A DNA stretch of 64,000 bases from Curvibacter lanceolatus ATCC 14669 (lineage in GTDB: Bacteria; Pseudomonadota; Gammaproteobacteria; Burkholderiales; Burkholderiaceae_C), in assembly GCF_000381265.1 (NCBI RefSeq), contig NZ_KB906257.1:124001-188000 (forward strand). The letters are read 5' to 3'. A program made the position numbers and the translations under genes. This document shows, piece by piece, positions 1,616 to 37,481 of the stretch. The first letter of the stretch is position 1; each line of letters starts with the position of its first letter. The notes beneath the pieces were generated by a model that saw only the letters and a list, made by a program, of their open reading frames with translations, had not been told where the DNA came from and searched no databases.

Positions 1616-1978
1616 GGTGGGCGCTCGGTAGGCTCTTGATCGGGGTCATGCTGCCCCAGCGCTGGCGGCGGCGCGATCACACCCGCGACAGGCCGTGTTC
1701 AATCGCTTTTGCTGGGTGGCTTGAGCCGGCGCCACGAGCTTGTCGCCAGCTTGTCACATTCGTCCACAGCTTCTGTGGACAACTTTGTGGGTGAGTGCAT
1801 GAACAAGCTGCCAAAGCCTTTACTGGTGCGGCTTTCAACAGGCTGCTTACTGTTTAAGCAGGGTTAACCCTGTGTTGAAAACTGCGAATTTTGCTACCGA
1901 AATAAGAGCAAAAAAGGCCTGCGAAGCAGGCCTTTTCGGGTGGTTGGAGGGTGGATCTGTGCTATGCGCGTCAGCGCT
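1616..1978. other. 363-bp intergenic region with several inverted repeats
   Basis: No gene is seen. It lies between the divergent start of the oxidoreductase gene and the 3' end of the U32 gene. It contains an 8-bp inverted repeat GTCCACAG/CTGTGGAC (1762-1780) that includes near-matches to a DnaA box, a 7-bp repeat CTGCTTA/TAAGCAG (1843-1861), the palindrome GGGTTAACCC (1861-1870) and a strong terminator (1912-1936). Confidence 0.6.
1912..1936. terminator. Rho-independent terminator (bidirectional)
   Basis: A perfect 11-bp stem, AAAAGGCCTGC pairing with GCAGGCCTTTT, around a GAA loop. The A-tract on one side and T-tract on the other let it work in both directions. It lies 43 bp beyond the stop of the U32 gene, which it probably terminates. 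Confidence 0.85.
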
Positions 1979-3364: not shown

Positions 3365-3542
3365 GGTGGGGTGTCCTGAGAGGGGCCGGCTGGCTTCGCC
3401 AACCCGTGCCATGCGATGCTCAGCAGCCATCGCACGGGGCGGCAGACAGGGCCTGTCTGGCGCTGGGCAAAAAGGGTGACGCTGTCGAAGCTCATGGCCA
3501 AGGCAGCGTCGGCTGGGGCCGATTTTAAGGGCTGACGCCGGT

Positions 3543-4806
3543 TCAGCCTTCTGTAGGGTTCAAGAGCGCTTCAAGAGTGGTGGCGCTCAGCATGTGCTGC
3601 GACCATTGATCGAGCTGCTGGCGGGTGGCCTCGCTCAGGCGTTGCTCGGCCCAGGGCGGCAGGGGGGCAAACCGCTGCTCCAGCACCCGCCGCAGCATCA
3701 GGGTGATGCCTTCCTCGCGGCCTTCCTCACGACCTTCTTGTCGACCTGCCTGGAGGCCATCCTTGTGGGCCTGTTTGAAAATACGCTCCAGGGTGTCTTC
3801 AAGCATGGGGGTTCTTTCAAAGAGGTTGGGGATGGCGGCCAGATCGGGCTCGGCGGTTTCGGGCATTTTGCGACGGATCAGACGGCGAAACCAGAGATCC
3901 AGGGTGCGTCGAAGTGCCTTCTGCTCGGGGGCTTGCAGCAAGCTTCCCGCTGCCTTGATCAGGCCGATGATGTCGGAGGGGCCCGTGCTGCGTTCAAGTC
4001 TGAACAAGGCTTCGACCACGTTGCGGACATCGGAGGAAGTTGACAGCTGCAGCCGGGCCTCATCGATCAGGTGGTACATGAGTCTGGGGCGGAACCGGGC
4101 CAGGCCGGGCAGGCTGGGGGCAAAGCAGTGGCCCGCATCGGTGGGTGCTTTCCAGGGGTGTGCGCCGTTGTAAAGCACCAAGGGGATCAGCGCGGGCAAT
4201 CGCCCGTCTTCCAGCTGCCTTTCCTTGATCAGATGCTGGGCCAGCAGGCCCACGTAGACCATCATGCGCACCGCCATCCACGGGTCATCCTGGCTCTGGA
4301 ACTCCAGCAGCAGGTAGATCCAGACCCAGCGTGGCCCCACTTGCAGCCGCCACACCATGTCGTCGTGGCGTTGCTTATCCGATTCGCTGACATAGCTGGC
4401 GTTGACGCGCTAAGAGCGTGTTCAATGTCTCGCACGGGCCGCGTTGGAGCGCAATCGGGATGAGTGGGTGGCCCGGGTGCGCCGCATGGGCTCGTGCCCA
4501 TGCAAGCAGTCGGGGCGCTCAATCGCCCGATTTCGCTCCAACCCTTCGGGCAGTGGCCTTTTCGGGCGGTCTGCGGCGTTGCGGCGCTTGTCGATAGGCG
4601 GGCTATCGACGGCGCACCGCGCCTTGCATCCCATCCCGAAAAGACCGCTGCGCGACCCGTGGGAGACGTTGAACACGCTCTAACGTATCGAAGCGGGCGG
4701 CTTGAACCCAGGGCCCGGGGACGAAACCGGTGAGCAGGTCGCGCACCATGTCGGGGTGCGAGAACAGCTGCTTGTAGCCACTGTCATGGGGAGTGTCCGT
4801 GCTCAT
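3543..4806 (-). pseudogene. Rpn-family recombination-promoting nuclease, disrupted
   Basis: The gene begins at ATG 4806 (MSTDTPHDSGYKQLFSHP, the usual Rpn/YhgA-like N-terminus) and reads to FDTL at 4681. It resumes on the other side of an inserted element at about 4409 with VNASYVSESDKQRHDD and continues through VWIYLLLEFQSQDD (the E-x-Q nuclease core of PF04754), VLYNG and a C-terminus with a GREEGREEG repeat, stopping at 3543. The two parts together cover a full-length family member. The insert brings stop codons and removing it with one target duplicate still leaves the frame off by one, so at least two lesions exist. A shortened protein could start at the internal ATG 4358. Confidence 0.85.
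4411..4683. mobile_element. Miniature inverted-repeat element with 3-bp target duplication
   Basis: A 267-bp element (4414-4680) has terminal inverted repeats of 30 bp, 27 of which match, beginning GAGCGTGTTCAA. It is flanked on both sides by the direct repeat TAA (4411-4413 and 4681-4683). Inside are further palindromes: GCATGGGC/GCCCATGC (4484-4503), a 16-bp arm pair 4551-4566 with 4635-4650 (14 of 16 matching), and GTCGATAG/CTATCGAC (4590-4610). There is no transposase-sized reading frame, so it looks like a non-autonomous element. It interrupts the Rpn gene. No second copy was noticed in the window. Confidence 0.8.
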
Positions 4807-4905
4807 GGCGGGCCATCGTGAGGCCCTGGGGGCAGCCTGTGGCCGGCGCACCGCTGGGCTGGCACTCCGGGGGGACAGAGGGGCGGCCCCGCCGACCCCG
4901 ACGCG

Positions 4906-5937
4906 TCAGTCCTTGGGCCGGAACACCAGCACCAGCGACGAAGGCACGGTGCCATCGGTGTCACGCGGAAGCACCTCGGTCTTGTCGATGGCCTTGAGCA
5001 CGGCCTCGTCCCACGCCGCCACGCCGCTGGACTTGCTCAGCTTGCGGCCCACGATGGTGCCGTCGGGGGCCAGGCGCACTTCCACCTCGGCCACCGGGTT
5101 GTTCGGCAGGTCGTCGGTGAAGACGATGTTGGGCTTGACCCGTGCCTTGACGCGCCCACCGTAGCTGGCAGAAGGCCCCGACGAACGCAGGGCGGTGCCC
5201 GTGGCACTGGGGCCTCCGCTGGCGCCGGCCATGCCGGCCATGCGCTTGAGGTTGTCGGCACGTTGGGCCTCGACGCGCTTGGCGTCGGCGGCGTCGGCGT
5301 CCTTCTTGCGCTTGGCATCGGCCTCGGCGGCGCGGCGCTTGTCGGCGGCTTCCTCCTGCTTCTTGCGCTCCTGGTCTTTTTCGCGCTGCAGTTGTTCCTG
5401 GCGCTTCTTTTCTGCGGCCTTCTCTGCTGCCTTTTCGGCTGCTTTCTCGGCCTCGCGCTTTTGCTGCAGGGCTTTTTCTTTTTCCAGCTTTTCCTGCTTT
5501 TCGCGCTCTTTCTTCTCCTGCGCTTTCTTCTCGAGTTCGCGCTGGTGCTCGCGGTCCTTTTTCTCGATTTCCTTGCGCTTGCGCTCCTTCTCGAGGGCGA
5601 TCTGGGCGTCCTTGAGCGATTCATCCGGCGCCGGTGGCGGCTTGACTGCCGGGGCCGGCGGCGGTGCGGGCCGGGGCTTGACGATCTCTTCGGGCGGCGC
5701 CGGCGGAGGAGGGGGGGGCGGCGGTGGTTCGACTGCGCGTGGCGCTGCCTCTTGCGGCACGGCAGACCACAGCTCGGCCTCGGCCACCGTGTCCTCGGCG
5801 TTGCGCTTCCATTGCACGCTGAAGGTCAGGCCGGCCACCAGCAGCGCGTGGGCCAGCAAGGCCAGGGCGACTGCGCGGCCCATGCCGCGCTGCGGCGGTG
5901 GCGCGAATTCGTTGCGTTCGGAGAGGGCGTGCGTCAT
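4906..5937 (-). CDS. tolA: Cell envelope integrity protein TolA
   Basis: 343 aa. One N-terminal transmembrane anchor (about residues 20-42), a run of nine prolines near residue 75, a long Lys/Glu/Ala coiled-coil stretch (about 110-225) and a C-terminal TonB-like globular domain containing PVAEVEVRLAPDGTIVGRKL. This is the usual three-domain TolA plan. It spans the periplasm and transmits inner-membrane energy from TolQ/TolR to Pal-TolB for outer-membrane constriction at division. It is the last gene of ybgC-tolQ-tolR-tolA and starts 18 bases after tolR. TolB and Pal are not encoded next to it. Confidence 0.93.
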   Translation of the reverse strand: MTHALSERNEFAPPPQRGMGRAVALALLAHALLVAGLTFSVQWKRNAEDTVAEAELWSAVPQEAAPRAVEPPPPPPPPPAPPEEIVKPRPAPPPAPAVKPPPAPDESLKDAQIALEKERKRKEIEKKDREHQRELEKKAQEKKEREKQEKLEKEKALQQKREAEKAAEKAAEKAAEKKRQEQLQREKDQERKKQEEAADKRRAAEADAKRKKDADAADAKRVEAQRADNLKRMAGMAGASGGPSATGTALRSSGPSASYGGRVKARVKPNIVFTDDLPNNPVAEVEVRLAPDGTIVGRKLSKSSGVAAWDEAVLKAIDKTEVLPRDTDGTVPSSLVLVFRPKD

Positions 5938-5955
5938 GAAGCTCAGGGGCCCGGG

Positions 5956-6384
5956 TCAGGGGGCCAGTTGCACCGACAGGCCCACGCGCTTGACGCCGGC
6001 GCGCTGCAGGGCATCCATCACCCTCACCACCGACTCGTATTTCACGTTCCGGTCGGCACTGATCACGACCGGGTTGTTGTCGTCGCCGTCCTGGGCCAGG
6101 CGCACGGCCGCCACCAGGCCGGCCTGGTTGATGGACTGGGTTTCTTCGGGCTTGCCGGGGCGGCGCAGCTCCAGCTTCTCGTCCTTGCCAATCACCACCT
6201 GCACCACACGGTCAGGTTGCTTGCTGGCCTTGCCCACGCTGGGCAGGTCGATGTTGCTGGGCGTGATCAGGGGCGCGGTCACCATGAAGATGATCAACAG
6301 CACCAGCATCACGTCGATGAAGGGCACCATGTTGATCTCGTTGATGGTGCGGCGGCCGCGGCCGCGTGAAACCATGGCGGGCAT
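5956..6384 (-). CDS. tolR: Tol-Pal system protein TolR
   Basis: 142 aa, ExbD/TolR family. A single membrane helix holds NMVPFIDVMLVLLIIFMVTAP at about residues 17-37, including the aspartate that carries protons through the TolQ-TolR motor. A periplasmic domain follows. The start at 6384 (MPAMVSRGRG) is preceded by GGAGGA eight bases upstream, much better than longer in-frame alternatives. It works with TolQ to energise TolA. Confidence 0.93.
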   Translation of the reverse strand: MPAMVSRGRGRRTINEINMVPFIDVMLVLLIIFMVTAPLITPSNIDLPSVGKASKQPDRVVQVVIGKDEKLELRRPGKPEETQSINQAGLVAAVRLAQDGDDNNPVVISADRNVKYESVVRVMDALQRAGVKRVGLSVQLAP

Positions 6385-6406
6385 AGCGGGGTCCTCCGGT
6401 CGGGGT

Positions 6407-7114
6407 TCAGCGGCCCGAGGCCGAGGCTTGAGCGGCCTGGGCGCCCAGGTTGCGCTGCAGGATGTTGGAGAACTCTTCGATGAAGGTTTCCTGGTGGATG
6501 GCCACGCGATCGATGTCGCGCGCAAAGCGGTTGTAGGCCACCACCGCCGGGATGGCCGAGAACAGGCCGATGGCGGTCGACACCAGGGCTTCGGCAATGC
6601 CGGGGGCCACCGTGGCCAGGGTGACCTGCTGCAGGGCGGCCAGGCCCGAGAACGCGCCCATGATGCCCCACACCGTGCCGAACAGGCCCACATAGGGGGA
6701 CACCGAGCCGACCGAGGCCAGGAAGGACAGATTGGACTCGATCACGTCCATCTCGCGCTGGAAGCTGGCCCGCATGGCGCGCCGGGCACCATCCATCAGG
6801 GTGCCGGCGTCGCTGATGCGGCGCTCGCGCAGTTTCTGGAACTCGCGCATGCCACTGGCAAAGATGCGTTCCATGGGGCCGGACTGGCGCGCGTTCTGCG
6901 CTGCAGCGGCAAACAGATCGTTCAGGCTGGTGCCCGACCAGAACTCGCGCTCGAACTCTTCATTGAGGGCTTTCACGCGCTTGATCGAAAACAGCTTGCG
7001 GAAGATGGCCGTCCAGCTGGCGATCGAAATGCCGGCCAGCAAGGCCATGACCAGCTGGACCACCAGACTGGCATGCAGCACCAGATGCACGATGGACAGG
7101 TCTTGAGAATTCAT
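6407..7114 (-). CDS. tolQ: Tol-Pal system protein TolQ (MotA/TolQ/ExbB proton channel)
   Basis: 235 aa. Three membrane segments with the family core YVGLFGTVWGIMGAF (about residues 140-155) and AEALVSTAIGLFSAIPAVVAYN (shown here as two overlapping signature parts) in the third helix. It forms the proton-driven stator with TolR. The ATG at 7114 follows GGAAG, and its first four bases overlap the ybgC stop (ATGA), indicating translational coupling. Confidence 0.94.
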   Translation of the reverse strand: MNSQDLSIVHLVLHASLVVQLVMALLAGISIASWTAIFRKLFSIKRVKALNEEFEREFWSGTSLNDLFAAAAQNARQSGPMERIFASGMREFQKLRERRISDAGTLMDGARRAMRASFQREMDVIESNLSFLASVGSVSPYVGLFGTVWGIMGAFSGLAALQQVTLATVAPGIAEALVSTAIGLFSAIPAVVAYNRFARDIDRVAIHQETFIEEFSNILQRNLGAQAAQASASGR

Positions 7115-7548
7115 GAGAGTACTTCCAGGATGTTCGTCGGGATGCGTGCGGGGCGCAGGCTGGCCGCATCGACCCAGCCTATGCGGATCGTGCCTTCGCA
7201 CAGAAGTTCCACCGGCAGGCCTGCCGCATCCTGCAGCCAGGCCTGCTGGGCAATCACCAGCGAGGCCCGGCCCGGGGTGTGCAGGCTGGCGGTGACAATG
7301 AGCTGATCGTCGAGCCGCGCCGGGCGGTGGTAGCGCACGCGGGTCTCGCTGACCACGAACATGCCGCCCGTGGCCTCGCGCAGCGCCTGTTGGCCCACGC
7401 CCAGGCTGCGCAGCCATTCGGTGCGGGCACGCTCGAAGAACTTGAGGTAGTTGGCATAGAACACGATGCCACCGGCATCGGTGTCTTCCCAGTACACGCG
7501 CACGCTGTGGCGGTAGGCGGCGCTTTGCGGAGCGGCTTGCGGGTTCAT
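7111..7548 (-). CDS. ybgC: YbgC family acyl-CoA thioesterase of the Tol-Pal operon
   Basis: 145 aa, hot-dog fold. The family motif WEDTDAGGIVFYANYLKFFE lies at about residues 20-39 and contains the catalytic aspartate of 4-hydroxybenzoyl-CoA-type thioesterases. YbgC hydrolyses short or hydroxylated acyl-CoA and is a standard first gene of tol-pal operons. It overlaps the aminotransferase stop upstream and the tolQ start downstream by four bases each (ATGA). Confidence 0.92.
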   Translation of the reverse strand: MNPQAAPQSAAYRHSVRVYWEDTDAGGIVFYANYLKFFERARTEWLRSLGVGQQALREATGGMFVVSETRVRYHRPARLDDQLIVTASLHTPGRASLVIAQQAWLQDAAGLPVELLCEGTIRIGWVDAASLRPARIPTNILEVLS

Positions 7549-8729
7549 CCGGCCAGGGCTTTCAGGCGGGCGATCGATTCCTGCAGGTGTTCCATCGAAC
7601 TGGCGGTGGAAAAGCGCAGAAAATCCGCGGTCTCGGCGGTGCCGAAATCGCGCCCCGGGGTGACGGCCAGGTGGCTTTCTCGCATCAGGGTGAAGGCCAG
7701 GTCCCAGCTGTCTTTCACGCCCAGGCGCTCGCACCAGTCGCGGCAGTGGGCCCAGGCATAGAAGGCCCCGTCGGGCTTCACGGGCACCGTCAGCCCCACG
7801 CTTTCCAGCGCCGGGATGAAGTAATCGCGGCGGGCCTTGAACTCGGCACGGCGGCGTTCGTACTCGGCCAGGCTGTCGGGCTCGAAGCAGGCCAGGGCGG
7901 CATGCTGGGCCACGGTGCTGGCACAGATGAACAGGTTCTGCGCCAGGCGTTCGACCACCGGCACCAGCGCATCAGGCACCACCAGCCAGCCCAGGCGCCA
8001 GCCCGTCATGTTGAAGTACTTGCTGAAGCTGTTGATGCTGATGAGCTGGTCGTCGATGGTGAGGCCCGTGTGGCCATAGGTGTCGTCATAGCTCAGGCCC
8101 AGGTAGATCTCGTCGACCATCGTGATGCCGTCGTGCTGCTTCACCACCTCGTGAATGCGGCGCAGTTCGTCGGGGTGGATCGAGGTGCCCGTGGGGTTGG
8201 AGGGCGAGGCCAGCAGCACGCCGCGGGTGCGCGGCGTCCAGGCCTGGCGCACCTTGTCGGCGCTGAGCTGGTAGCGCTCGGCCGCCGTGGTCGGGATCAA
8301 CACCGCATTGCCCTCGGCCGCGCTCACAAAGTGGCGGTTGCAGGGGTAGCTGGGGTCGGGCATCAGCACTTCGTCGCCCGCATCGATCAGCGCCAGGCAG
8401 GCCAGTTGCAGGGCGGCCGAGGCGCCGGCCGTGATCACGATGCGCCGCGCGGGCACCTGGGCGCCGAAGCGGTCCGCATACCACTGGCTGATGCGTTCAC
8501 GCAGCGCCATCAGGCCGGTGGCCTGGGTGTACTGGGTGGCCCCGTCGCGGATGGCCTTGGCGGCGGCCTCCTGCACGGCAGGGGGGGCGGTGAAGTCGGG
8601 CTCGCCGATGTTCAGGAAGATCATCGGGCGGCTGCTGTGCGCCACCTCGCGGGCCAGTTCGGAAGCAGCCTTGGCCACCTCCATGACATAGAAGGGCTCG
8701 ATGCGCCCAGCTCGGGTGGAGATTTTCAT
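7545..8729 (-). CDS. Pyridoxal-phosphate aminotransferase, class I/II
   Basis: 394 aa, fold type I. Signatures visible are FLNIGEPDFTAPPAV near residue 38, ASPSNPTGTSIHP near 173, MVDEIYLGLSYDD near 205, and the PLP-lysine region SINSFSKYFNMTGWRLGWL near 232. The conserved arginine that binds the substrate carboxylate lies in FLRFSTASS near the C-terminus. The subgroup resembles aspartate/alanine-type aminotransferases often annotated only as class I/II. The exact amino acid pair cannot be read from sequence. It overlaps ybgC by ATGA and therefore belongs to the same transcript as tolQRA. Confidence 0.88.
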   Translation of the reverse strand: MKISTRAGRIEPFYVMEVAKAASELAREVAHSSRPMIFLNIGEPDFTAPPAVQEAAAKAIRDGATQYTQATGLMALRERISQWYADRFGAQVPARRIVITAGASAALQLACLALIDAGDEVLMPDPSYPCNRHFVSAAEGNAVLIPTTAAERYQLSADKVRQAWTPRTRGVLLASPSNPTGTSIHPDELRRIHEVVKQHDGITMVDEIYLGLSYDDTYGHTGLTIDDQLISINSFSKYFNMTGWRLGWLVVPDALVPVVERLAQNLFICASTVAQHAALACFEPDSLAEYERRRAEFKARRDYFIPALESVGLTVPVKPDGAFYAWAHCRDWCERLGVKDSWDLAFTLMRESHLAVTPGRDFGTAETADFLRFSTASSMEHLQESIARLKALAG

Positions 8730-28704: not shown

Positions 28705-28724
28705 CTCTGAAACTGGTTTCAGAG
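28705..28724. promoter_or_regulatory. PtxS-type operator upstream of the LacI-family gene
   Basis: A 20-bp inverted repeat whose central 14 bases (28708-28721) read TGAAACTGGTTTCA, one base from the palindrome TGAAACCGGTTTCA bound by PtxS in Pseudomonas. It lies about 116 bp before the regulator's ATG, consistent with autoregulation. Confidence 0.8.
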
Positions 28725-28839
28725 CTTCCCGGTCTTGCGTCCTTGTGCAGGCGCCTGGAGGCCCTGGCCCGTGCTTGCCCAGCTTGACCCGACCCTGCCC
28801 GTGCCCCGTTCTGCCCCACCCACCTCCTCCAAGCCTGCC

Positions 28840-29931
28840 ATGGCCGCCGCAGCGGCCCCCTCCGGCGCTGCCGGCACCCGCGCCACCATTGCCGATGTGG
28901 CGCGCGAGGCCGGGGTGTCCAAGGCCACCGTCTCGCGCTTTCTGAACCACCGCGAGACCCTGCTCAGCCCCGACATTGCGATGCGGGTGGAGCGCGCGGT
29001 GGCGGCGCTGGGCTACTCGCCCAGCCCGATGGCGCAGGCCCTCAAGCGCGGCCGCACCCGGCTCATCGGCCTGGTGGTGGCCGATGTGACCAACCCCTAT
29101 TCGGTGGCGGTGCTGCGCGGTGCCGAGCAGGCCTGCCAGGAGGCGGGCTACCTGGTCATGCTGTTCAACCTGGGCAACGACAGCGGGCGCGAGCGCGAAG
29201 CCATGGCGGCCCTGGCCTCCTACCAGGTCGAGGGCTTCATCCTCAACACCCTGGGGCGTGACCCGGGCGTGGCGGCCGAGGCCTTGCGCCTGGGCCGCCC
29301 GGTGGTGCTGGTGGACCGGCGCCACAGCAGCATGCAGGCCGATTTCGTGTCGCTGGACAACGCCCAGGCCATGCGCACGGTACTAGCGCATCTGCAGGCC
29401 CAGGGCTACCGGCAACTGCTGTACGTGACTGAGCCAGTGCGGGGCGTGAGCTCGCGCACCGAGCGCGAGGCGGCTTTTCGCGAGGGCTGCCACCAGTCGG
29501 GCCACGAGGGCCCGGCCCTGCAGGGGCAGACCTTCGAGAGCCAGGACGATGCGCCCGAAGCCCAGTTGCAGGCCCTGGCCGAGGCCTTGCAGGCCTGCCG
29601 CCAGCAGGCTGGCGGGCAGCCCGCGGCGGTGCTGGCCAGCAATTCGGTGGTCACCCTGCGCGTGTGCGCGGCCCTGGCCCGCCTGGGTTGGCAGGCCGGG
29701 CGCGAACTGGGCCTGGTGGGTTTTGACGACCCCGATTGGGCGCCCTTCGTGGGCCCGGGCATCAGCACCCTGGCCCAGCCCACGCACGATCTGGGGCGCC
29801 TGGCCGCCACCTGCCTGCTGGAGCGCCTGGGCGGCCTGAGTCTGGCGCCGCGCCAGATCCTGTTGCCGGGGCAGCTGCGGGTGCGGGGTTCGACGGCAGG
29901 CCCCTCGGCCAGCACTTCGGTCGGCACCTGA
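28840..29931 (+). CDS. ptxS: LacI family regulator, PtxS-like (2-ketogluconate-responsive repressor)
   Basis: 363 aa from ATG 28840; in-frame starts further upstream exist but would add an unconserved Pro-rich stretch. Residues about 15-65 are the LacI helix-turn-helix (TIADVAREAGVSKATVSRFL), followed by a periplasmic-binding-like sensor domain with LIGLVVADVTNPYSVAVLRG and VGFDDPDWAPFV. Identification as PtxS rests on context: operators matching the PtxS palindrome precede both this gene and the downstream operon, and that operon carries kguE-, kguK- and kguD-like genes. In pseudomonads PtxS is a repressor released by 2-ketogluconate. Confidence 0.83.
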   Translation: MAAAAAPSGAAGTRATIADVAREAGVSKATVSRFLNHRETLLSPDIAMRVERAVAALGYSPSPMAQALKRGRTRLIGLVVADVTNPYSVAVLRGAEQACQEAGYLVMLFNLGNDSGREREAMAALASYQVEGFILNTLGRDPGVAAEALRLGRPVVLVDRRHSSMQADFVSLDNAQAMRTVLAHLQAQGYRQLLYVTEPVRGVSSRTEREAAFREGCHQSGHEGPALQGQTFESQDDAPEAQLQALAEALQACRQQAGGQPAAVLASNSVVTLRVCAALARLGWQAGRELGLVGFDDPDWAPFVGPGISTLAQPTHDLGRLAATCLLERLGGLSLAPRQILLPGQLRVRGSTAGPSASTSVGT

Positions 29932-29977
29932 GCATTTCCGAGCTGCTTGGCAGCCAGGGTTTTCACCCATGGAAACC

Positions 29978-29991
29978 TGAAACCGGTTTCT
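29978..29991. promoter_or_regulatory. PtxS-type operator, distal copy before the transport/kgu operon
   Basis: TGAAACCGGTTTCT matches 13 of 14 positions of the PtxS palindrome; the 12 central bases GAAACCGGTTTC are perfectly symmetric. Its centre is 23 bp from the next operator. Confidence 0.82.
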
Positions 29992-30000
29992 TAAACTTGC

Positions 30001-30014
30001 TGAAAACGGTTTCA
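30001..30014. promoter_or_regulatory. PtxS-type operator, proximal copy before the transport/kgu operon
   Basis: TGAAAACGGTTTCA matches 13 of 14 positions and is embedded in CTGAAAACGGTTTCAG. Two operators about two helical turns apart and 72-108 bp before the first gene suggest cooperative repression. Confidence 0.82.
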
Positions 30015-30085
30015 GGTTGTGTCTGAGTCGCCCGGCCAGGGCGTCAGACCGTCAGACACCCGCTCCTTCATCAATCGGATCGATC

Positions 30086-30757
30086 GTGAACTACAGCTTT
30101 CAATTTGCCGATGTGCTGGCCGCCTGGCCGCTGCTGCTCAAGGGCACCTGGATCACGGTGCAGCTGTCCCTGCTGGCCATGGCGCTGGGCCTGGGGCTGG
30201 CTATTCTGTGCGCCTGGGGCAAGACCGCCGGCCCGCGCCCGCTGCGCTGGGTGATCCAGGCCTACATCGAGTTGATCCGCAACACGCCGTTCCTGGTGCA
30301 GCTGTTCTTCTTTTTCTTTGCCCTGCCGGCCATCGGTCTGCGCTGGAGCGCCTACACCGCAGCCCTCACGGCCATGGTGATCAACCTGGGGGCCTACGCC
30401 ACCGAGATCATCCGCGCCGGCATCGAGTCCATCCCGCGCGGCCAGATCGAGGCCGGGCTGGCGCTGAACCTCAAGCGCTGGGAGATCTTCCGCTTCGTGA
30501 TCCTCAAGCCCGCGCTCAAGGCCATCTACCCCGCGCTGACCAGCCAGTTCATCCTGCTGATGCTGAGCTCGGCCGTGGTGTCGGTCATCTCGGCCGACGA
30601 CCTGACCTCGGTGGCCGCCAACCTGCAGTCGCAGACCTTTCGCAGCTTCGAGATCTACATCGTGGTGGCCCTGATCTACCTGGCGCTGTCGATGGCCTTC
30701 TCGGCCCTGTTCAAGCTGATCTACCGCGCCGCGCTCAACTACCCCGACCGCCGCTGA
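30086..30757 (+). CDS. ABC transporter permease, polar amino acid uptake (HisM/GlnP) type
   Basis: 223 aa from GTG 30086. Starts NYSFQFADVLAAWPLLLKGT; about five membrane helices and the permease EAA-like segment ESIPRGQIEAGLALNLKRWE that contacts the ATPase. ELIRNTPFLVQLFFFFFALP is the signature of the His/Glu/Arg/opine permease family. First gene of the operon that also encodes a second permease, binding protein, ATPase and the kgu enzymes. Despite its amino-acid family, its location under PtxS operators suggests a sugar-acid substrate. Confidence 0.9.
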   Translation: MNYSFQFADVLAAWPLLLKGTWITVQLSLLAMALGLGLAILCAWGKTAGPRPLRWVIQAYIELIRNTPFLVQLFFFFFALPAIGLRWSAYTAALTAMVINLGAYATEIIRAGIESIPRGQIEAGLALNLKRWEIFRFVILKPALKAIYPALTSQFILLMLSSAVVSVISADDLTSVAANLQSQTFRSFEIYIVVALIYLALSMAFSALFKLIYRAALNYPDRR

Positions 30758-30832
30758 GCCGGGTCGTCCACCCCCATGCTGACCTGTAACGCAACCCTGA
30801 TCTGCCCGCTGCGGGCAACGGAGACCTGACCC

Positions 30833-31486
30833 ATGCGCAGTTTCGGTTTGGCCGAGTTCATGTTCATCCTCGAGGCGGCCCGCTGGACGCTGGCCTTGTC
30901 GCTGCTGGCCTTTGTCGGCGGCTCGGTGGTGGGGCTGGCCGTGGCGCTGGCCCGCACCAGTGAGTCGCGCTGGGCCCAGGCGGGGGCCGGCCTGTTCATC
31001 CAGGTGTTCCAGGGCACGCCGCTGCTGCTGCAGTTGTTCCTGATCTTTTTTGGCGCCCCGGTGCTGGGCTTTGACATCAACCCCTGGGTGGCGGCCGGGG
31101 CTGCGCTGATCTTGAACAGCGGCGCCTTTCTGGGCGAGATCTGGCGCGGCTGCATCCAGGCCGTGCCCCGGGGCCAGTGGGAGGCGGCCGAGGCGCTCAG
31201 CCTGTCGTATGTGAACCGCATGCGCGACGTGGTGCTGCCGCAGGCCTGGCGCATCGCCGTGCCGCCCACCGTGGGCTATGGCGTGCAGATCATCAAGGGC
31301 ACCTCGCTGGCAGCCATCATCGGCTTCACCGAGATCACCCGGGCCGGCCAGATCATCAACAACGCCACCTTCCAGCCCCTGCTGGTGTTCAGCGCGGTGG
31401 CCGCCATCTACTTCGCACTGTGCTGGCCGCTGTCCTTGCTCGCGGCCCGCATGGAGCGCCGCCAGGCCGCCGCCACGGCGCGCTGA
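30833..31486 (+). CDS. ABC transporter permease, polar amino acid uptake type (second subunit)
   Basis: 217 aa. Same family as the preceding permease: LFIQVFQGTPLLLQLFLIFF and the cytoplasmic coupling loop QAVPRGQWEAAEALSLSYVN, with five predicted helices. The two permeases probably form a heterodimer. GGAGACCTGACCC precedes the ATG at 30833. Confidence 0.9.
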   Translation: MRSFGLAEFMFILEAARWTLALSLLAFVGGSVVGLAVALARTSESRWAQAGAGLFIQVFQGTPLLLQLFLIFFGAPVLGFDINPWVAAGAALILNSGAFLGEIWRGCIQAVPRGQWEAAEALSLSYVNRMRDVVLPQAWRIAVPPTVGYGVQIIKGTSLAAIIGFTEITRAGQIINNATFQPLLVFSAVAAIYFALCWPLSLLAARMERRQAAATAR

Positions 31487-31544
31487 GGCGACGCCACCGC
31501 AGACCTCTTTTTTCCGTCCCATCCCATCCCACCAGGAGACCTTC

Positions 31545-32375
31545 ATGCACGACCCGATCAACCCCTTGTTGTCCGCAGGCGCCAGCCGCCGCAGTTTCAC
31601 CACCGCGCTGGTGGCCTCTGCCCTGGGCCTGATGGCTTCGGGCATGGCCTCGGGCGTCTCGGCCCAGACCCTGGAAGAATTGAAAAAGAAGGGTGAACTC
31701 ACCGTCGGCATGCTGGTCGACTTTCCGCCCTATGGCACCACCAATGCGCAAAACCAGCCCGACGGCTATGACGCCGACGTGGCGCGCCTGCTGGGCAAGG
31801 ACCTGGGCCTGAAGGTCAACCTGGTGCCCGTCACCGGCCCCAACCGCATTCCGTTTTTGCTGACCAACAAGGTGGATCTGCTGGTGGCCTCGCTGGCCAT
31901 CACGCCCGAGCGGGCCAAGCAGGTGCAGTTCTCGCAACCCTATGCGGCCGCGACCATCGTGTTGTTTGGCGCCACCAAGTCGGCCATCAAGAGCGCGGCC
32001 GACCTCAAGGGCCTGCGCGTGGGCGTGGCCCGGGCCAGCACGCAAGACGTGGCAGTGACCAAGTCGGCCCCTGAGGGCACCGAGATCCGCCGCTTCGACG
32101 ACGACGCCTCGGCCATGCAGGCCCTGTTGTCGGGCCAGGTGGATGCCATCGGCTGCTCGGTCACGGTGGCGGCCCAGATCAACAAGCGCGCCCCGGCCGG
32201 CAGCTTCGAGGTCAAGTTCAACCTGCTGCAGCAAGCCATGGGCATTGCGCTGCGCCCCAACCAGGCCGAACTGCTGAAGGCCGTGAACGACTTCGTGGCC
32301 CGCAACACCGCCAATGGCGAGCTCAACAAGCTCTACCGCAAGTGGCTGGAAAGCGATCTGCCCAAGCTGTCTTGA
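31545..32375 (+). CDS. ABC transporter substrate-binding protein, polar amino acid (family 3) type
   Basis: 276 aa. An N-terminal signal with SRRSFTTALVASALGLMASG and cleavage near VSA-QT; the RR within it could be a Tat motif. The mature part is a type II binding fold: GELTVGMLVDFPPYGTTNA, DVARLLGKDLGLKVNLVPV, DLLVASLAITPERAKQVQFS and DLKGLRVGVARASTQD. Its ligand defines the transporter's substrate; the operon context suggests 2-ketogluconate or a related hexonate. AGGAGACCTTC precedes the ATG at 31545. Confidence 0.9.
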   Translation: MHDPINPLLSAGASRRSFTTALVASALGLMASGMASGVSAQTLEELKKKGELTVGMLVDFPPYGTTNAQNQPDGYDADVARLLGKDLGLKVNLVPVTGPNRIPFLLTNKVDLLVASLAITPERAKQVQFSQPYAAATIVLFGATKSAIKSAADLKGLRVGVARASTQDVAVTKSAPEGTEIRRFDDDASAMQALLSGQVDAIGCSVTVAAQINKRAPAGSFEVKFNLLQQAMGIALRPNQAELLKAVNDFVARNTANGELNKLYRKWLESDLPKLS

Positions 32376-32416
32376 ACGCCTGACCTCTCCCTGCCTTTTC
32401 GCCCCACCTCGCTGCC

Positions 32417-33199
32417 ATGACCGAACACGCCACCCACGCCCATGCCGACGCCCCGCCCATCATCCGACTGGAGCAAGTCCAGAAGTGGTATGGCGAGTTC
32501 AAGGTGCTCAGCGACATCAACCTGTCGGTGCAGCCCGGCGAGCGCATCGTGATCTGCGGGCCTTCGGGCTCGGGCAAGAGCACGCTGATCCGCTGCATCA
32601 ACCGTCTGGAGACGGTGCAGCAGGGCCGCATCGTGGTCGATGGCCATGAGCTGACCGCGGGCGGGCGCGAGGTGGACGCGGTGCGGCAAGAGGTGGGCAT
32701 GGTGTTCCAGCAGTTCAACCTGTTCCCGCACCTGACGATTCTGCAGAACTGCACGCTGGCGCCCATGCGCTCGCGCGGCATGAGCCAGCAGCAGGCCGAA
32801 GAGGTGGCCATGAAATACCTGAGCCGGGTGCGCATCCCCGACCAGGCGCACAAATACCCCAGCCAGCTCTCGGGGGGGCAGCAGCAGCGCGTGGCCATTG
32901 CGCGCGCCCTGTGCATGACGCCCAAGGTGATGCTGTTCGACGAGCCCACCTCGGCCCTGGACCCCGAGATGGTCAAGGAGGTGCTCGACACCATGATCGG
33001 CCTGGCCGAAGACGGCATGACCATGCTGTGCGTGACCCATGAAATGGGCTTTGCCCGCAGCGTGGCCGACCGGGTGATCTTCATGGCCGAGGGCCGCATT
33101 CTGGAGCAGGCCCCGCCCGAGCGCTTTTTTGGCAACCCGCAGCACGAGAAGACGCGCCAGTTCCTGGGCCAGATCCTGCCCTCGCACCAGGGCGCATGA
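32417..33199 (+). CDS. ABC transporter ATP-binding protein, GlnQ/HisP type
   Basis: 260 aa. Walker [10 protein letters not shown] near residue 49, Q-loop [12 protein letters not shown], signature [15 protein letters not shown], Walker [17 protein letters not shown] and switch histidine in VTHEMGFA. All ATPase residues are intact. It completes the importer encoded by the two permease genes and the binding-protein gene and overlaps the kguE-like gene by four bases. Confidence 0.93.
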
Positions 33200-34032
33200 T
33201 GCGCACCGACCTGACCCGCCCCGCCCGTGGCTTTGCGGTGCTGATTTCGCTGGGCGCCTTTGGCGCCAGCGAGGTGCTGCGCCTGGGCCAGCTGCACTTC
33301 ACCCGCGTGGCGGCCGCGGCCGGCGCCGACGGCGTGGAGGTGCGCGAGGAACTGCTGCGTGATGCCACAACCGAGCTGCCCCAGTTGGCCACCGAGCTGG
33401 CTGCCCGGGGGCTGCAGGCGGTCTACTCCTGCCCCACCGGTTTGTGGCGCGAGGGCGGCACCCTGGACGAGGCGGCGCTGCGCTCGGCCCTGGCGGCGGC
33501 CCGCTTGCTCGGGGCCGCTTGCCTCAAGATGTCCATCGGTGGCTTTGGCCCTGCATCGGCCGACAGCTGGGCGCTGCTCAAGTCGCTGCTCCAGACCCCC
33601 TCTGGCCCCGAGTTGCTGATCGAAAACGACCAGACCCCCGAGGCCGGCACGCTGCCCGCCTTGCAACGTTTCTTTGCTGCCGCCCAGGCCCAGGGCCTGC
33701 CGCTGGCCCTGACCTTTGACATGGGCAACTGGCACTGGGTGGGCGAATGCCCTCAGGCTGCTGCCCAGTTGCTGGGTGGGCAGGTGGGTTATGTGCATTG
33801 CAAGGGCGTGCTGCGCGAACCGGCCCGCTGGGTGGCCGTGCCGCTGGCCCAGTCGCAAGCCCCGTGGCGCACGGTGCTGGGCCAGCTGCCGGCCGATGTG
33901 CCCTGGGCCATCGAATACCCCTTGCAGGGCGCTGACCTGATCGCCTCCGTGCGGGCCGAACTGGCCCTGCTGCGCCGCGAAGCCCTGCGCCTGCGCGAAG
34001 CCCGTGCTGAACGGGCGCACGCGCTGGCCTGA
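33196..34032 (+). CDS. kguE: Sugar phosphate isomerase/epimerase, KguE-like
   Basis: 278 aa, AP endonuclease 2/xylose isomerase-like TIM barrel. Visible elements are [35 protein letters not shown] and [18 protein letters not shown], which supply metal-binding Glu, Asp and His at strand ends. In the pseudomonad 2-ketogluconate operon the gene kguE encodes this kind of protein beside the kinase and reductase genes. Its exact reaction is not established. ATGATG start overlaps the ATPase stop. Confidence 0.78.
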
Positions 34033-34073
34033 CATGCCCCTTTTGACCTGACTCCGCCATTTTCCGCAATGCC

Positions 34074-35054
34074 ATGACTGATTCCCTGAACCCCATAGCC
34101 GTGCAAGCGCTGGACGTGATCACTTTTGGCGAGGCCATGATGATGCTGGTGGCCGACAGCCCCGGCCCGCTGGAGGCCGTGAGCGGCTTTCACAAGCGCA
34201 CCGCAGGGGCAGAGACCAATGCCGCCATCGGGCTGGCCCGGCTGGGCCTGCGGGTGGGCTGGGCCAGCCGCCTGGGCACCGACTCGATGGGCCGCTACCT
34301 GCTGGCCGAGATGCAGCGCGAGGGCATCGACTGCTCGCACGTGGTGTGTGACGCCAGCCAGCGCACCGGCTTTCTGATCAAGGGCCGGGTGGACGATGGC
34401 AGCGACCCACCGATCGAATACCACCGCAAGGGCTCGGCCGCCAGCCAGATGGGGCCGGCCGACCTCGACGGGCCCTGGCTCACGGCGGCGCGCCACCTGC
34501 ATGCCACAGGCGTGTTTGCCGCCGTCTCGCCCAGCACCCTGGCGCTGACCCGCGAGACCTTGCTGCAGATGCGGGCGGCCGGCCGCAGCATCTCCTTCGA
34601 CACCAACCTGCGCCCCACGCTGTGGCCCTCGGCCGAGGTGATGCGGCGCGAGGTCAATCAGCTCGCCAGCCTGGCCGACTGGGTGCTGCCCGGCATCGAG
34701 GAGGGCCGGCTGCTGACCGGCCACGACACGCCCGAGGCCGTGGCCCGCTTCTACCTGGACCAGGGCGCGCAGCTGGTGGTGGTCAAGCTGGGGGCCGATG
34801 GCGCCTACTACGAAGGCCGCCACGCGGGCCAATCCGTGCAGGGGCGGGTGGCGGGCTTTCCGGTGGCCGAGGTGGTGGACACCGTGGGCGCAGGTGACGG
34901 CTTTGCCGTGGGCGTGGTCAGTGCCTTGCTGGAGGGGCGCCCCGTGGCCGAGGCGGTGCGCCGTGGCGCCTGGATCGGCGCCCGCGCGGTGCAGGTGCTG
35001 GGCGATACCGAAGGGCTGCCGACCCGGGCCCAGTTGAACGAGGCTGGCCTGTGA
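34074..35054 (+). CDS. kguK: PfkB family sugar kinase, 2-ketogluconate/2-keto-3-deoxygluconate kinase-like
   Basis: 326 aa, ribokinase fold. DVITFGEAMMMLVADSPGPL and RTAGAETNAAIGLARLG at the N-terminus are typical of KDG kinases; VDTVGAGDGFAVGVVSAL near residue 274 carries the catalytic aspartate (GAGD). KdgK and KguK are close relatives; presence between kguE- and kguD-like genes under PtxS operators favours 2-ketogluconate kinase. GTGA overlap couples it to the reductase gene. Confidence 0.82.
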   Translation: MTDSLNPIAVQALDVITFGEAMMMLVADSPGPLEAVSGFHKRTAGAETNAAIGLARLGLRVGWASRLGTDSMGRYLLAEMQREGIDCSHVVCDASQRTGFLIKGRVDDGSDPPIEYHRKGSAASQMGPADLDGPWLTAARHLHATGVFAAVSPSTLALTRETLLQMRAAGRSISFDTNLRPTLWPSAEVMRREVNQLASLADWVLPGIEEGRLLTGHDTPEAVARFYLDQGAQLVVVKLGADGAYYEGRHAGQSVQGRVAGFPVAEVVDTVGAGDGFAVGVVSALLEGRPVAEAVRRGAWIGARAVQVLGDTEGLPTRAQLNEAGL

Positions 35055-36076
35055 GCGCAGCCGCCGGGTTGGGAGCCGGGCGCCAGCGGGTGCTGGTGTT
35101 CCGTGCCTTGCCACCTGATCAGTTGGCCCGGCTGCAGGCGGCCCACGAGGTCACGGTGGCCGACCCGCGCCAAGCGGGGCAGGCCGAGGCCTTCGAGGCC
35201 GCCCTGGCCCTGGCCGATGGCCTGATCGGCTCCAGCTACCCCATCACCCCCGACTTGCTGGCGCGGGCGCCACGACTGAAGGTGATCTCCAGCATCTCGG
35301 TGGGCGTGGACAACTACCCTTTGGCGGCGCTTGCGCAGCGTGGCATCTTGTTGTGCCACACCCCCGGGGTGTTGACTGAAACCACGGCCGACACGATTTT
35401 TGCGTTGATCCTGGCCACCAGCCGGCGCCTGGTCGAGCTGGCCAACCATGTGCGTGAAGGGCGCTGGCAGCGCAACATCGGCGAAGACCTGTTTGGCCGC
35501 GACGTGCATGGCAAGACCTTGGGGCTGGTGGGCTTTGGCCGCATCGGCCAGGCCCTGGCCCGGCGTGCCGCGCTGGGCTTTGGCATGCCGGTGCTCTACC
35601 ACGCTCGGCGCGCCGTGGACCTGTCGGTGCAGGCGCCCGCGTTGCAGGGCCGGGTGCGCCATGCGCCGCTCGAGGAGGTGCTGGCCGGCTCGGATGTGGT
35701 GGCGGTGGTGCTGCCCTTGAGCGATGAGACCCGGGGCCTGATGGGGCCGCGTGAATTCGGCCTGATGAAGCCAGGCGCCATCTTCGTCAACGGCGCCCGG
35801 GGTGCCATCGTGCAGGAGGCGGCGCTGTTGCAGGCCCTGGAGTCCGGCCCCTTGTGGGCCGCCGGCCTGGATGTGTTTGCCACCGAGCCGCTGCCGCTGG
35901 ATTCGCCCCTGCGCGGGCATCCGCGCATCACCGCCTTGCCCCACATCGGCTCGGCCACCCTGGAGACGCGGCACGCCATGGCGGTGCTGGCCACCAGCAA
36001 CCTGTTGCAGGCCTTGGCGGGCGAGCGACCGCAAGCGGTCTTCGCCGGATCGGGATGGGGCGAAAGCGCTGGGTAA
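35051..36076 (+). CDS. kguD: D-2-hydroxyacid dehydrogenase, 2-ketogluconate (6-phosphate) reductase KguD-like
   Basis: 341 aa from GTG 35051 (GTGA overlap with the kinase). NAD(P)-binding loop LGLVGFGRIGQALARRAAL near residue 160, then the catalytic trio: arginine in FVNGARGAIV, glutamate in DVFATEPLPLDS, and histidine in ALPHIGSATLET. The family includes glyoxylate/hydroxypyruvate reductases and the 2-ketogluconate-6-phosphate reductase KguD. As last gene of the operon, the KguD reading yields 6-phosphogluconate for the Entner-Doudoroff or pentose phosphate route. GhrB-type activity is the alternative. Confidence 0.82.
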   Translation: MSAAAGLGAGRQRVLVFRALPPDQLARLQAAHEVTVADPRQAGQAEAFEAALALADGLIGSSYPITPDLLARAPRLKVISSISVGVDNYPLAALAQRGILLCHTPGVLTETTADTIFALILATSRRLVELANHVREGRWQRNIGEDLFGRDVHGKTLGLVGFGRIGQALARRAALGFGMPVLYHARRAVDLSVQAPALQGRVRHAPLEEVLAGSDVVAVVLPLSDETRGLMGPREFGLMKPGAIFVNGARGAIVQEAALLQALESGPLWAAGLDVFATEPLPLDSPLRGHPRITALPHIGSATLETRHAMAVLATSNLLQALAGERPQAVFAGSGWGESAG

Positions 36077-36088
36077 CGACGCGCCGGC

Positions 36089-37261
36089 TCAGCCGGTGCG
36101 CAGGCCGTCGCTTTGCACGTAGGGCTTGAACATCGAGAACTTCTCGGCCTGCATGCGTTGGGTGGCGATGTTCTCCAAAGCTTCCATCGTCTGACCATCG
36201 GTAGGCCACATGGCCATGCCCAGGCTGATGTCGAGTTGGATGGGTGTGTTGCGAACCTCGATGGGCTGTGCCAGCAGGCCGCGCAGTCGGGCCACAGCGC
36301 CCCTCAGGTGCTCCTGGGTGGGGGTGTGGTGCAAGACCACCCCGAACAGGTCTTCACCTATCGCGCTGGCAAAGTCGGCCTCGCGGGCGTACTCGTTCAG
36401 GCGATTGCCCAAGGCTGCCAGAACCTCGTCGCGCAGCCTGCTGTCGCGCTGGCCGCCAGGGCGGTGAAATTCATTCAGATCGACGAGCAGGTAGCTGAAG
36501 CGGACGCCCGAGCGCTCGCAGCGGGCGATCTCGCGCTGCATGACCTCGACCATGCGCTGGCGGCCGCTCAAGCCGCTGACAGGGTCTTTCTGCAGCAGCT
36601 GTCGCAGCGAGGCTTGGGAGCGCACATAGCAGGCCATGTGGATGCTGTAGGTCCAACCCATGATGCTCAGAACCACCACGGCCAGCGTGAGGGAGTGGAT
36701 TGGGTGGTTCTGCAAGGCCTCGGGGCTGGCAACCTGCCCGGCCACCAGGCTGCGGGCCGCCATGGCGCCGGCAATCCCCATCAGGAAGAACGCGACCAAG
36801 CTGTTGATCATCCGGTCATCGCCCTTCACCGGCCGCAACATCGTGAAGGCCGCGACCAGCACGACCACCGAGTAGGCCGCATCGTGGAAGATACGCTGCG
36901 CCAGCATCTCATCTTCGTACCACCAGTTGAGCAGCACGAACACGGGCACCAAGACCAGCCCGGCTTGCCAACGCAGCTTGGAAGGCCGTTGCATGAAGCG
37001 CAGCGACCCCTCCAGCACCATCAGCAGGGCCGCAAATACAAAGCCACCGTTGATCAACATGGGCCAGTCGGGGCCGTCTGTGCGGGGCGGTGGCAGGGTG
37101 GCCAGAAAGAAACCAACGGCGCCCGTGGCACCTGCGCCAGCAAACCACCGCACCCCGGCCATGTGCCGATTGGCCCGCCAGGTCGTGAACAGGAGCACGG
37201 CGGCGATGGACGCAGCCGTGACCATCAGAAAGGCGATGATCGATTGGTTCAGGAATCGCAT
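36089..37261 (-). CDS. Membrane protein with degenerate GGDEF domain
   Basis: 390 aa from ATG 37261; in-frame starts at 37384 and 37393 would add an AT-rich, poorly hydrophobic 41-44 residue leader. Six or seven membrane helices (residues about 5-210) precede a GGDEF-type domain (about 230-380). The active-site signature is SAIGEDLFG instead of R-GGDEF, and the metal/substrate motif D-x-D-x-F-K-x-I-N-D-x-x-G-H is replaced by LVDLNEFHRPGG. Cyclase activity is therefore unlikely; it may bind nucleotide or act as a sensor. Converges with kguD, 12 bp apart. Confidence 0.78.
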   Translation of the reverse strand: MRFLNQSIIAFLMVTAASIAAVLLFTTWRANRHMAGVRWFAGAGATGAVGFFLATLPPPRTDGPDWPMLINGGFVFAALLMVLEGSLRFMQRPSKLRWQAGLVLVPVFVLLNWWYEDEMLAQRIFHDAAYSVVVLVAAFTMLRPVKGDDRMINSLVAFFLMGIAGAMAARSLVAGQVASPEALQNHPIHSLTLAVVVLSIMGWTYSIHMACYVRSQASLRQLLQKDPVSGLSGRQRMVEVMQREIARCERSGVRFSYLLVDLNEFHRPGGQRDSRLRDEVLAALGNRLNEYAREADFASAIGEDLFGVVLHHTPTQEHLRGAVARLRGLLAQPIEVRNTPIQLDISLGMAMWPTDGQTMEALENIATQRMQAEKFSMFKPYVQSDGLRTG

Positions 37262-37481
37262 GAGGTGAACGAGGCCATGACGGCAATGCCAGCGAAAACC
37301 GCGCCAGGCGAGGCGCAGGTTTTCATATCCATCAAGTTTACCGTCTTTCTTTGTATAAATGGTTAAATTGATAGGATTGCTCATGAACAGCATTTGAGGT
37401 GCGGCTGTCGGCGCGTGGCTGATGTATTTGCGGGTGTGAATGCATCAAGATGGTGCATTCTAGAGGCCTCCCGGGGAGGCT

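Follow-up and report, generated by a model that had tools for sequence, protein, structure and literature searches.

According to PMC3402500, the LacI-family repressor PtxS of Pseudomonas recognizes the operator TGAAACCGGTTTCA in the kgu and gad promoters and in its own promoter, and responds to 2-ketogluconate as its effector; excerpts of PMC11678583 report that loss of KguE impairs 2-ketogluconate use in P. plecoglossicida. Here we describe a locus of this kind in a 64,000-nucleotide stretch of the Curvibacter lanceolatus ATCC 14669 genome (contig NZ_KB906257.1, positions 124,001 to 188,000; the window), where a gene for a PtxS-like repressor precedes an operon for an ATP-binding cassette (ABC) importer of the polar-amino-acid type (PAAT) and for relatives of KguE, KguK and KguD. 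We conclude, with a probability of about 0.85, that this is a PtxS/kgu-type regulon for the utilisation of 2-ketogluconate, with the PAAT-type importer replacing KguT, a carrier of the major facilitator superfamily (MFS). Regulator, operator, enzymes and context together give strong support to a 2-ketogluconate regulon of the PtxS type whose carrier position is taken by a PAAT importer, and the importer itself would take up 2-ketogluconate.

Operators, regulator and catabolic enzymes

A pattern search of the window located three 14-bp sites, TGAAACTGGTTTCA, TGAAACCGGTTTCT and TGAAAACGGTTTCA, each with 1 mismatch to the PtxS site TGAAACCGGTTTCA and none assigned to a strand, which flank the LacI-family gene and the operon. 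The first (28708-28721) is the core of a 20-bp palindrome at 28705..28724 that is interrupted only at its centre and lies before the LacI-family gene (28840..29931, plus strand). Operon operators 1 (TGAAACCGGTTTCT, 29978..29991) and 2 (TGAAAACGGTTTCA, 30001..30014) are spaced 23 bp apart, start to start. A TGAAACCGGTTTCA-type site thus stands both in the promoter of the regulator gene and in front of the kgu operon, and the three near-perfect palindromes that the first-pass annotation had reported, one before the LacI gene and two before the operon, are all where it had placed them. The window contains no further match to TGAAACCGGTTTCA at up to 3 mismatches; in a shuffle test at that tolerance 3 or more matches arose in 10 of 100 shuffles, a result that is weak taken alone. 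A search of the entire genome (6,832,523 bases, 72 contigs) at no more than 1 mismatch found just these three sites, and a reversed-pattern control over the same genome gave 0.

Related loci were drawn by binding protein, KguE or KguK, and 143 were typed by tblastn. The binding-protein search (E <= 1e-60) was positive in at least 57 of 399 genomes of the window's family and the KguE search in at least 9 of 399 genomes of its order, the window genome included in both and no more than six candidates scored in each genome, while a KguK-alignment scan of a named genome collection supplied the best 80 of 539 confirmed relatives. The typed regions comprise these named-collection loci, 56 other binding-protein genomes, four KguE loci (L096-L099), two plasmid loci and the window; KguE loci on short stretches (L008, L009) were left out, and a KguE search of plasmids returned 18 records, none reaching 80% coverage. 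This is not a random sample, the two genome sets may overlap and near-copies were retained, and the counts are not to be read as frequencies. Seventy loci carry a PAAT importer in the order permease 1-permease 2-binding protein-ATPase (the first form), 6 carry one in the order binding protein-permease 1-permease 2-ATPase (the second form), 53 have the MFS carrier KguT, and 14 have no assigned carrier.

The arrangement of operator plus operon was found again in other genomes, as the first-pass annotation had suggested checking. In 60 of the 70 first-form loci, a site with at most 2 mismatches lies no more than 300 bp upstream of the first permease gene; the best site in that position has 0 mismatches in 44 loci, 1 in 14, 2 in 2, 3 in 2 and 5-6 in 8, and mononucleotide-shuffled loci average 0.025 such sites per locus. 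At the same tolerance, second-form loci have a site before the binding-protein gene in 4/6 cases and before the LacI gene in 6/6, and MFS-type loci have one before KguE in 50/53. The operator also precedes the LacI gene in relatives, as in the window, and most Pseudomonas loci show the identical 14-mer ahead of both LacI and KguE. A second operator type, TGGAACCGGTTCCA, precedes KguE in Burkholderia, Paraburkholderia and most Enterobacterales loci. As read from eleven LacI rows, rather than counted over all of them, the recognition helix is AGVSKATVSR or AGVSKASVSR with the first type (TGAAACCGGTTTCA) and TGKTSISR or TGKTSVSR with the second (TGGAACCGGTTCCA), and such joint variation is the behaviour expected of a true regulator-operator pair. 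Given the genome-wide rarity of the site and its conservation in related loci, we rejected chance palindromes as an explanation.

The regulator, identified by profile matches, was placed in a LacI tree of 131 rows (quick method, no bootstrap; the paralogues sit on long branches; a duplicate Sinorhizobium meliloti row was removed). All 123 kgu-linked LacI rows, including 52 from MFS-type loci, fell on one side of a branch with a Shimodaira-Hasegawa-like approximate likelihood ratio (SH-aLRT) of 98. On the other side were 8 rows: the S. meliloti LacI, 5 paralogues from the window genome and, from Halomonas loci, 2 additional LacI genes. Identity to the window protein had a median of 66% in the first ABC form and 43% in the MFS form, and did not exceed 32% in 7 paralogues. 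The regulator therefore groups, as an ortholog, with the LacI proteins of MFS-type kgu operons (PtxS of Pseudomonas being represented by kgu loci other than that of P. aeruginosa), which bears out its earlier assignment to the PtxS type. By homology, 2-ketogluconate would release it from its operators.

The enzyme genes kguE, kguK and kguD occur together in the operon, all on the plus strand. For the KguE-like TIM-barrel isomerase (33196..34032), a PDB search at E <= 0.001 gave just one relative, 1yx1 (E 1e-48), the structure of P. aeruginosa PA2260, which is kguE. The third enzyme (35051..36076) is a KguD-like D-2-hydroxyacid dehydrogenase, a predicted 2-keto-6-phosphogluconate reductase by profile matches and synteny, whose best NCBIfam match, GhrB, is below its cut-off. 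The second, a KguK-like PfkB kinase (34074..35054), is by homology a predicted 2-ketogluconate kinase. PMC6651773 describes a 2-ketogluconate kinase of Cupriavidus necator H16 that was purified and proven active, and gives primers for it. These primers fit the ends of the kinase gene in a second-form ABC locus of C. necator A5-1 (L136; start at 6989-7010 with 1 mismatch, end at 7916-7933 with 0). The product of this A5-1 gene, used in place of the H16 gene, is 70% identical to the window KguK, which is thereby orthologous to a 2-ketogluconate kinase of demonstrated activity. Excerpts of PMC2842291 state that 2-ketogluconate is used by other Cupriavidus strains and that JMP134, which does not use it, lacks the kinase gene. 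The first-pass annotation had suggested aligning the enzymes with KguE, KguK and KguD of P. aeruginosa, and the PA2260 relationship and the kinase identity uphold those names. A regulon built on a 2-keto-3-deoxygluconate (KDG) kinase was rejected: NCBIfam matches of KguK to KDG kinase and IolC are all below cut-off, against 70% identity to the Cupriavidus 2-ketogluconate kinase.

The operon might instead serve a compound closely related to 2-ketogluconate (2-keto-D-gulonate, KDG or another ketoaldonate, for example), with 2-ketogluconate itself just one of several substrates. KguE, whose function is not assigned, speaks for this in the 49 of 62 KguK-bearing first-form loci that have it, but regulator, operator and enzymes are the set of the MFS-type kgu operons, for which passages of PMC3402500 and PMC11678583 name 2-ketogluconate as effector and substrate, respectively, and we regard a different main substrate as unlikely.

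An Entner-Doudoroff dehydratase (edd) is encoded in the window genome (938 bits, cut-off 708). The genome also holds a weak match to the gluconate-2-dehydrogenase small subunit (29.5 bits, cut-off 23.4; L228, G000:C13:45000-53000), which adjoins a gene that by eye resembles a GMC-type oxidoreductase and is possibly part of a periplasmic sugar or sugar-acid dehydrogenase. Because of this pair of genes the cell might also make 2-ketogluconate, and we dropped the idea that the organism only scavenges it; no PtxS site at up to 1 mismatch was found at these dehydrogenase genes. Beyond the operon, a minus-strand open reading frame (36089-37393) with, by eye, a membrane part and a GGDEF-like end faces the operon's end.

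Exchange of the carrier

The importer genes stand at the front of the operon, also on the plus strand: permease 1 (30086..30757, taking a GTG start, with a TTG at 30017 also open), permease 2 (30833..31486, profile matches), a periplasmic binding protein of the SBP_bac_3 family (31545..32375) and a GlnQ/EhuA-like ATPase (32417..33199, profile matches). The order permease-permease-binding protein-ATPase-isomerase-PfkB kinase-2-hydroxyacid dehydrogenase is correct as first read. With its SBP_bac_3 protein, two paired HEQRo-type permeases (TIGR01726) and one GlnQ-like ATPase, the importer has the composition of the PAAT family.

KguT is missing from the window operon, and the nine KguT matches elsewhere in the genome are all distant (best 31% identity). 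None of the 15 ABC-form genomes searched, the window's included, has a KguT orthologue, the best match reaching 37% identity or less; KguT in MFS loci is 63-100% identical to the query, setting aside three second, paralogous hits at 21-23%. Conversely, in none of 13 MFS-form genomes does the closest match to the binding protein exceed 40% identity. Regulator, operator type and enzymes stay the same whether they accompany the MFS carrier or one of two PAAT importers differing in gene order. It might be argued that 2-ketogluconate enters by another carrier and that the ABC importer is dispensable, given the nine distant matches and a search that covered KguT and no other carrier families. None of these matches is an orthologue or lies within the operon, however, and the operator directly precedes the importer genes in 60 of 70 loci, so that we give this alternative very little probability.

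Among first-form loci KguK is present in 62/70, accompanied in those 62 by KguD in 58, LacI in 56 and KguE in 49. The 8 without KguK comprise three that stop at a contig end (L060, L061, L093) and five in whose stretch the gene is missing (L076, L094, L095, L204, L205). Among named genera, the first form occurs for example in Variovorax, Acidovorax, Rhodoferax and Ramlibacter and in the Alcaligenaceae Paralcaligenes, Schauerella and Allopusillimonas; the second form was found in Cupriavidus, Janthinobacterium and Herbaspirillum, and the MFS form in Pseudomonas, Enterobacterales and Burkholderia/Paraburkholderia. A Polaromonas contig (L125) ends before most importer genes. Locus typing and the KguT-free ABC genomes confirm that an ABC importer stands in place of the MFS carrier. 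The swap as originally proposed is real, but narrower than the variation found, since the MFS carrier is retained in Burkholderia and Paraburkholderia and the ABC importer also comes in another gene order.

The Herbaspirillum kgu cluster (L170, 2420-4034) has two tandem binding-protein genes for one importer. In Halomonas-type loci (L163, L177, L187, L189, L194), LacI, KguK and mostly KguD are retained, and the stretch showed no KguT, no PAAT importer and no site of this operator type; these loci perhaps use a further carrier and operator. We make no claim for a TRAP carrier in Halomonas: the TRAP-like genes of L187 lie, by eye, with mannonate-dehydratase- and fructuronate-reductase-like genes.

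The binding protein and its branch

In amino-acid binders of this family, an arginine equivalent to Arg123 of the window protein holds the alpha-carboxylate and an aspartate holds the alpha-ammonium group of the ligand. Arg123 is invariant in the 66 first-form core proteins and in 7/7 second-form proteins. The ammonium-binding position, Ser205 in the window protein, is Ser in 66/66 of the former and Pro in 7/7 of the latter, as against Asp in 6/6 Escherichia coli amino-acid binders; the outlying proteins L094, L095, L204 and L205, counted apart, have Ser, Asn, Ser and Ser. The aspartate expected of an amino-acid-specific PAAT importer is therefore absent, and its loss speaks against ordinary alpha-amino acids as the predicted ligand. 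Arg101, Arg163 and Arg183 are invariant in both forms and absent from the 6 E. coli proteins. A tree of 53 binding proteins, in which 18 of the 70 first-form loci were represented, joined the two forms with L095 and with paralogues L101 and L105 (and L119, by a long branch) in one clade (98/100) that excluded the E. coli proteins. An AlphaFold2 model (mean predicted local distance difference test score 83.7), used for fold search only, shows the usual family fold. We propose that the protein binds 2-ketogluconate.

The opposing possibility is that the ABC genes import an amino acid or an amino-sugar acid such as D-glucosaminate and are merely co-regulated with the kgu enzymes. The best 50 listed structures bind amino acids or opines, the importer genes match NCBIfam profiles of amino-acid and ectoine transporters (all below equivalog cut-offs), and glucosaminate differs from 2-ketogluconate only at C2. 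On the other hand, the Asp position is uniformly Ser or Pro, the genes recurring in the operon are KguE, KguK and KguD, 15/15 ABC genomes are without a KguT orthologue for 2-ketogluconate uptake, and two PAAT cassettes of different gene order occupy the same place. Import of an amino acid or amino-sugar acid is for these reasons the least probable of the alternatives.

Several observations weigh against a 2-ketogluconate importer. We found no binding, transport or growth datum for the operon or for the importers of its relatives, and the best 50 listed PDB matches consist of amino-acid binders, opine binders and engineered variants of these. KguE was not found in 13 of the 62 first-form loci holding KguK (L043, L044, L067, L071, L073-L075, L080 and others). 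Close relatives of the binding protein occur without KguK (L076, L094, L095, L204, L205), in L069 and L070 the importer and KguK stand without KguD, LacI or operator, and L133 is without LacI or operator in the stretch. Loss of the aspartate is not unique: in a set of 23 further SBP_bac_3 proteins from this genome, 11 lack it or are unaligned there and 12 have it, while Arg101 occurs in 12/23 and Arg163 in 6/23, so that no one residue is diagnostic by itself. In Pantoea, an Asp-less relative (L231) adjoins genes that by eye resemble those of ureide/purine breakdown. Since Asp-less importers stand beside ureide-like genes, the residue pattern disfavours a standard alpha-amino acid more than it indicates a hexonate, and we have toned down an earlier reading of the loss as proof of a hexonate ligand.

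On the 2-ketogluconate reading, the PtxS-like LacI protein would, without substrate, occupy the operator before its own gene and the two before the operon, and incoming 2-ketogluconate would free it, by homology with Pseudomonas PtxS. In the periplasm the binding protein, its ammonium pocket remodelled, would capture 2-ketogluconate, hold the carboxylate through Arg123 and pass the ligand on for import through the two permeases and the ATPase. KguK would phosphorylate it at C6, as its homology to the proven Cupriavidus kinase predicts, and KguD would by homology reduce the product to 6-phosphogluconate, which could enter the Entner-Doudoroff pathway, whose dehydratase is encoded in the genome. 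KguE presumably takes some part in the pathway.

The same genome encodes, with paralogue L101 (L226, G000:C33:1-12000, 1633-8376), another PAAT importer from this Asp-less branch. Its genes run GntR/FCD regulator (opposite strand)-permease 1-permease 2-ATPase-binding protein-zinc dehydrogenase-tagaturonate-reductase-like-galactarate/altronate-dehydratase-like, with the neighbour genes named from Pfam matches above cut-off and NCBIfam matches below it. This is probably a hexonate or hexuronate importer, and its position beside hexuronate/hexonate-type genes supports a sub-branch that includes sugar-acid importers. Asp187 is found in both kgu forms and in L101. Paralogue L105 lies near an amidase gene and, with L231, weighs against a blanket sugar-acid rule for the branch. 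On balance we lean slightly towards a PAAT sub-branch that, having lost the Asp and carrying Arg101/Arg163/Arg183 (with Asp187 in both kgu forms and L101), would recognize hexonates and ketohexonates through the carboxylate and hydroxyl groups of these ligands, and that would have been recruited at least twice, in two gene orders, in place of KguT in PtxS regulons and once more into the hexuronate/hexonate cluster of this genome.

On S. meliloti pSymA (L204, 5462-10558), a relative of the importer lies with a LacI gene and a 2-hydroxyacid dehydrogenase gene and no annotated kinase, a gene set that would fit reduction before phosphorylation. The S. meliloti relatives were dropped as proof of a sugar-acid role, the regulator not being PtxS-like and no kinase being annotated.

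Comparison with described systems

Among the titles and beginnings of abstracts listed in searches of the open PubMed Central literature, which did not extend to RegPrecise, TCDB or the Fitness Browser, none describes a PAAT importer for 2-ketogluconate, and passages of PMC8669468 have nothing on the genes. Profile libraries class the importer genes with amino-acid transporters, and 2-ketogluconate uptake is therefore likely to be overlooked in many beta-proteobacteria; a close relative of the binding protein is carried by at least 57 of the 399 sampled genomes of the window's family. If the assignment holds, a textbook family of importers gains ketoaldonates as substrates, an extension of its range that the first-pass annotation had suggested, and a residue signature is at hand for finding more cases. 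The regulon would also be a clean natural example of one that keeps repressor, operator and enzymes while the carrier mechanism is exchanged, secondary transport for ATP-driven, binding-protein-dependent transport.

The importer resembles GlnHPQ, HisJQMP, ArtPIQMJ and EhuABCD in its SBP_bac_3 protein, its two HEQRo-type permeases (TIGR01726) and its GlnQ/EhuA-like ATPase, and differs from them in falling below their equivalog cut-offs, in the Ser at the ammonium-binding Asp position and in the conserved Arg101/Arg163/Arg183. The loci on S. meliloti pSymA (L204) and on the Variovorax VAI-C plasmid (L205) share with it binding proteins 55% and 72% identical to the window's and the order permease 1-permease 2-binding protein-ATPase followed by a 2-hydroxyacid dehydrogenase, but KguK and PtxS operators are missing from both stretches, and in the LacI tree the S. 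meliloti protein falls among the non-kgu paralogues. The Cupriavidus, Janthinobacterium and Herbaspirillum kgu loci (L135, L136, L142, L152, L170) and L097 share with the window locus a PtxS-like LacI, operator-like sites, KguE-KguK-KguD and a PAAT importer; these differ in the order binding protein-permease 1-permease 2-ATPase, in a binding protein 42-45% identical to the window's and in Pro for Ser.

With Pseudomonas ptxS-kguEKTD, as presented in PMC3402500 and PMC11678583, the window locus shares the LacI-family regulator, the 14-bp operator type and the order KguE, KguK, KguD, together with a site before the regulator and another before the operon. The absence of any further PtxS site at up to 1 mismatch in the window genome means that none lies at a gluconate dehydrogenase operon, unlike Pseudomonas gad. 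The window operon has two operators in front, and opens with four PAAT genes where the Pseudomonas operon has the MFS carrier KguT between KguK and KguD.

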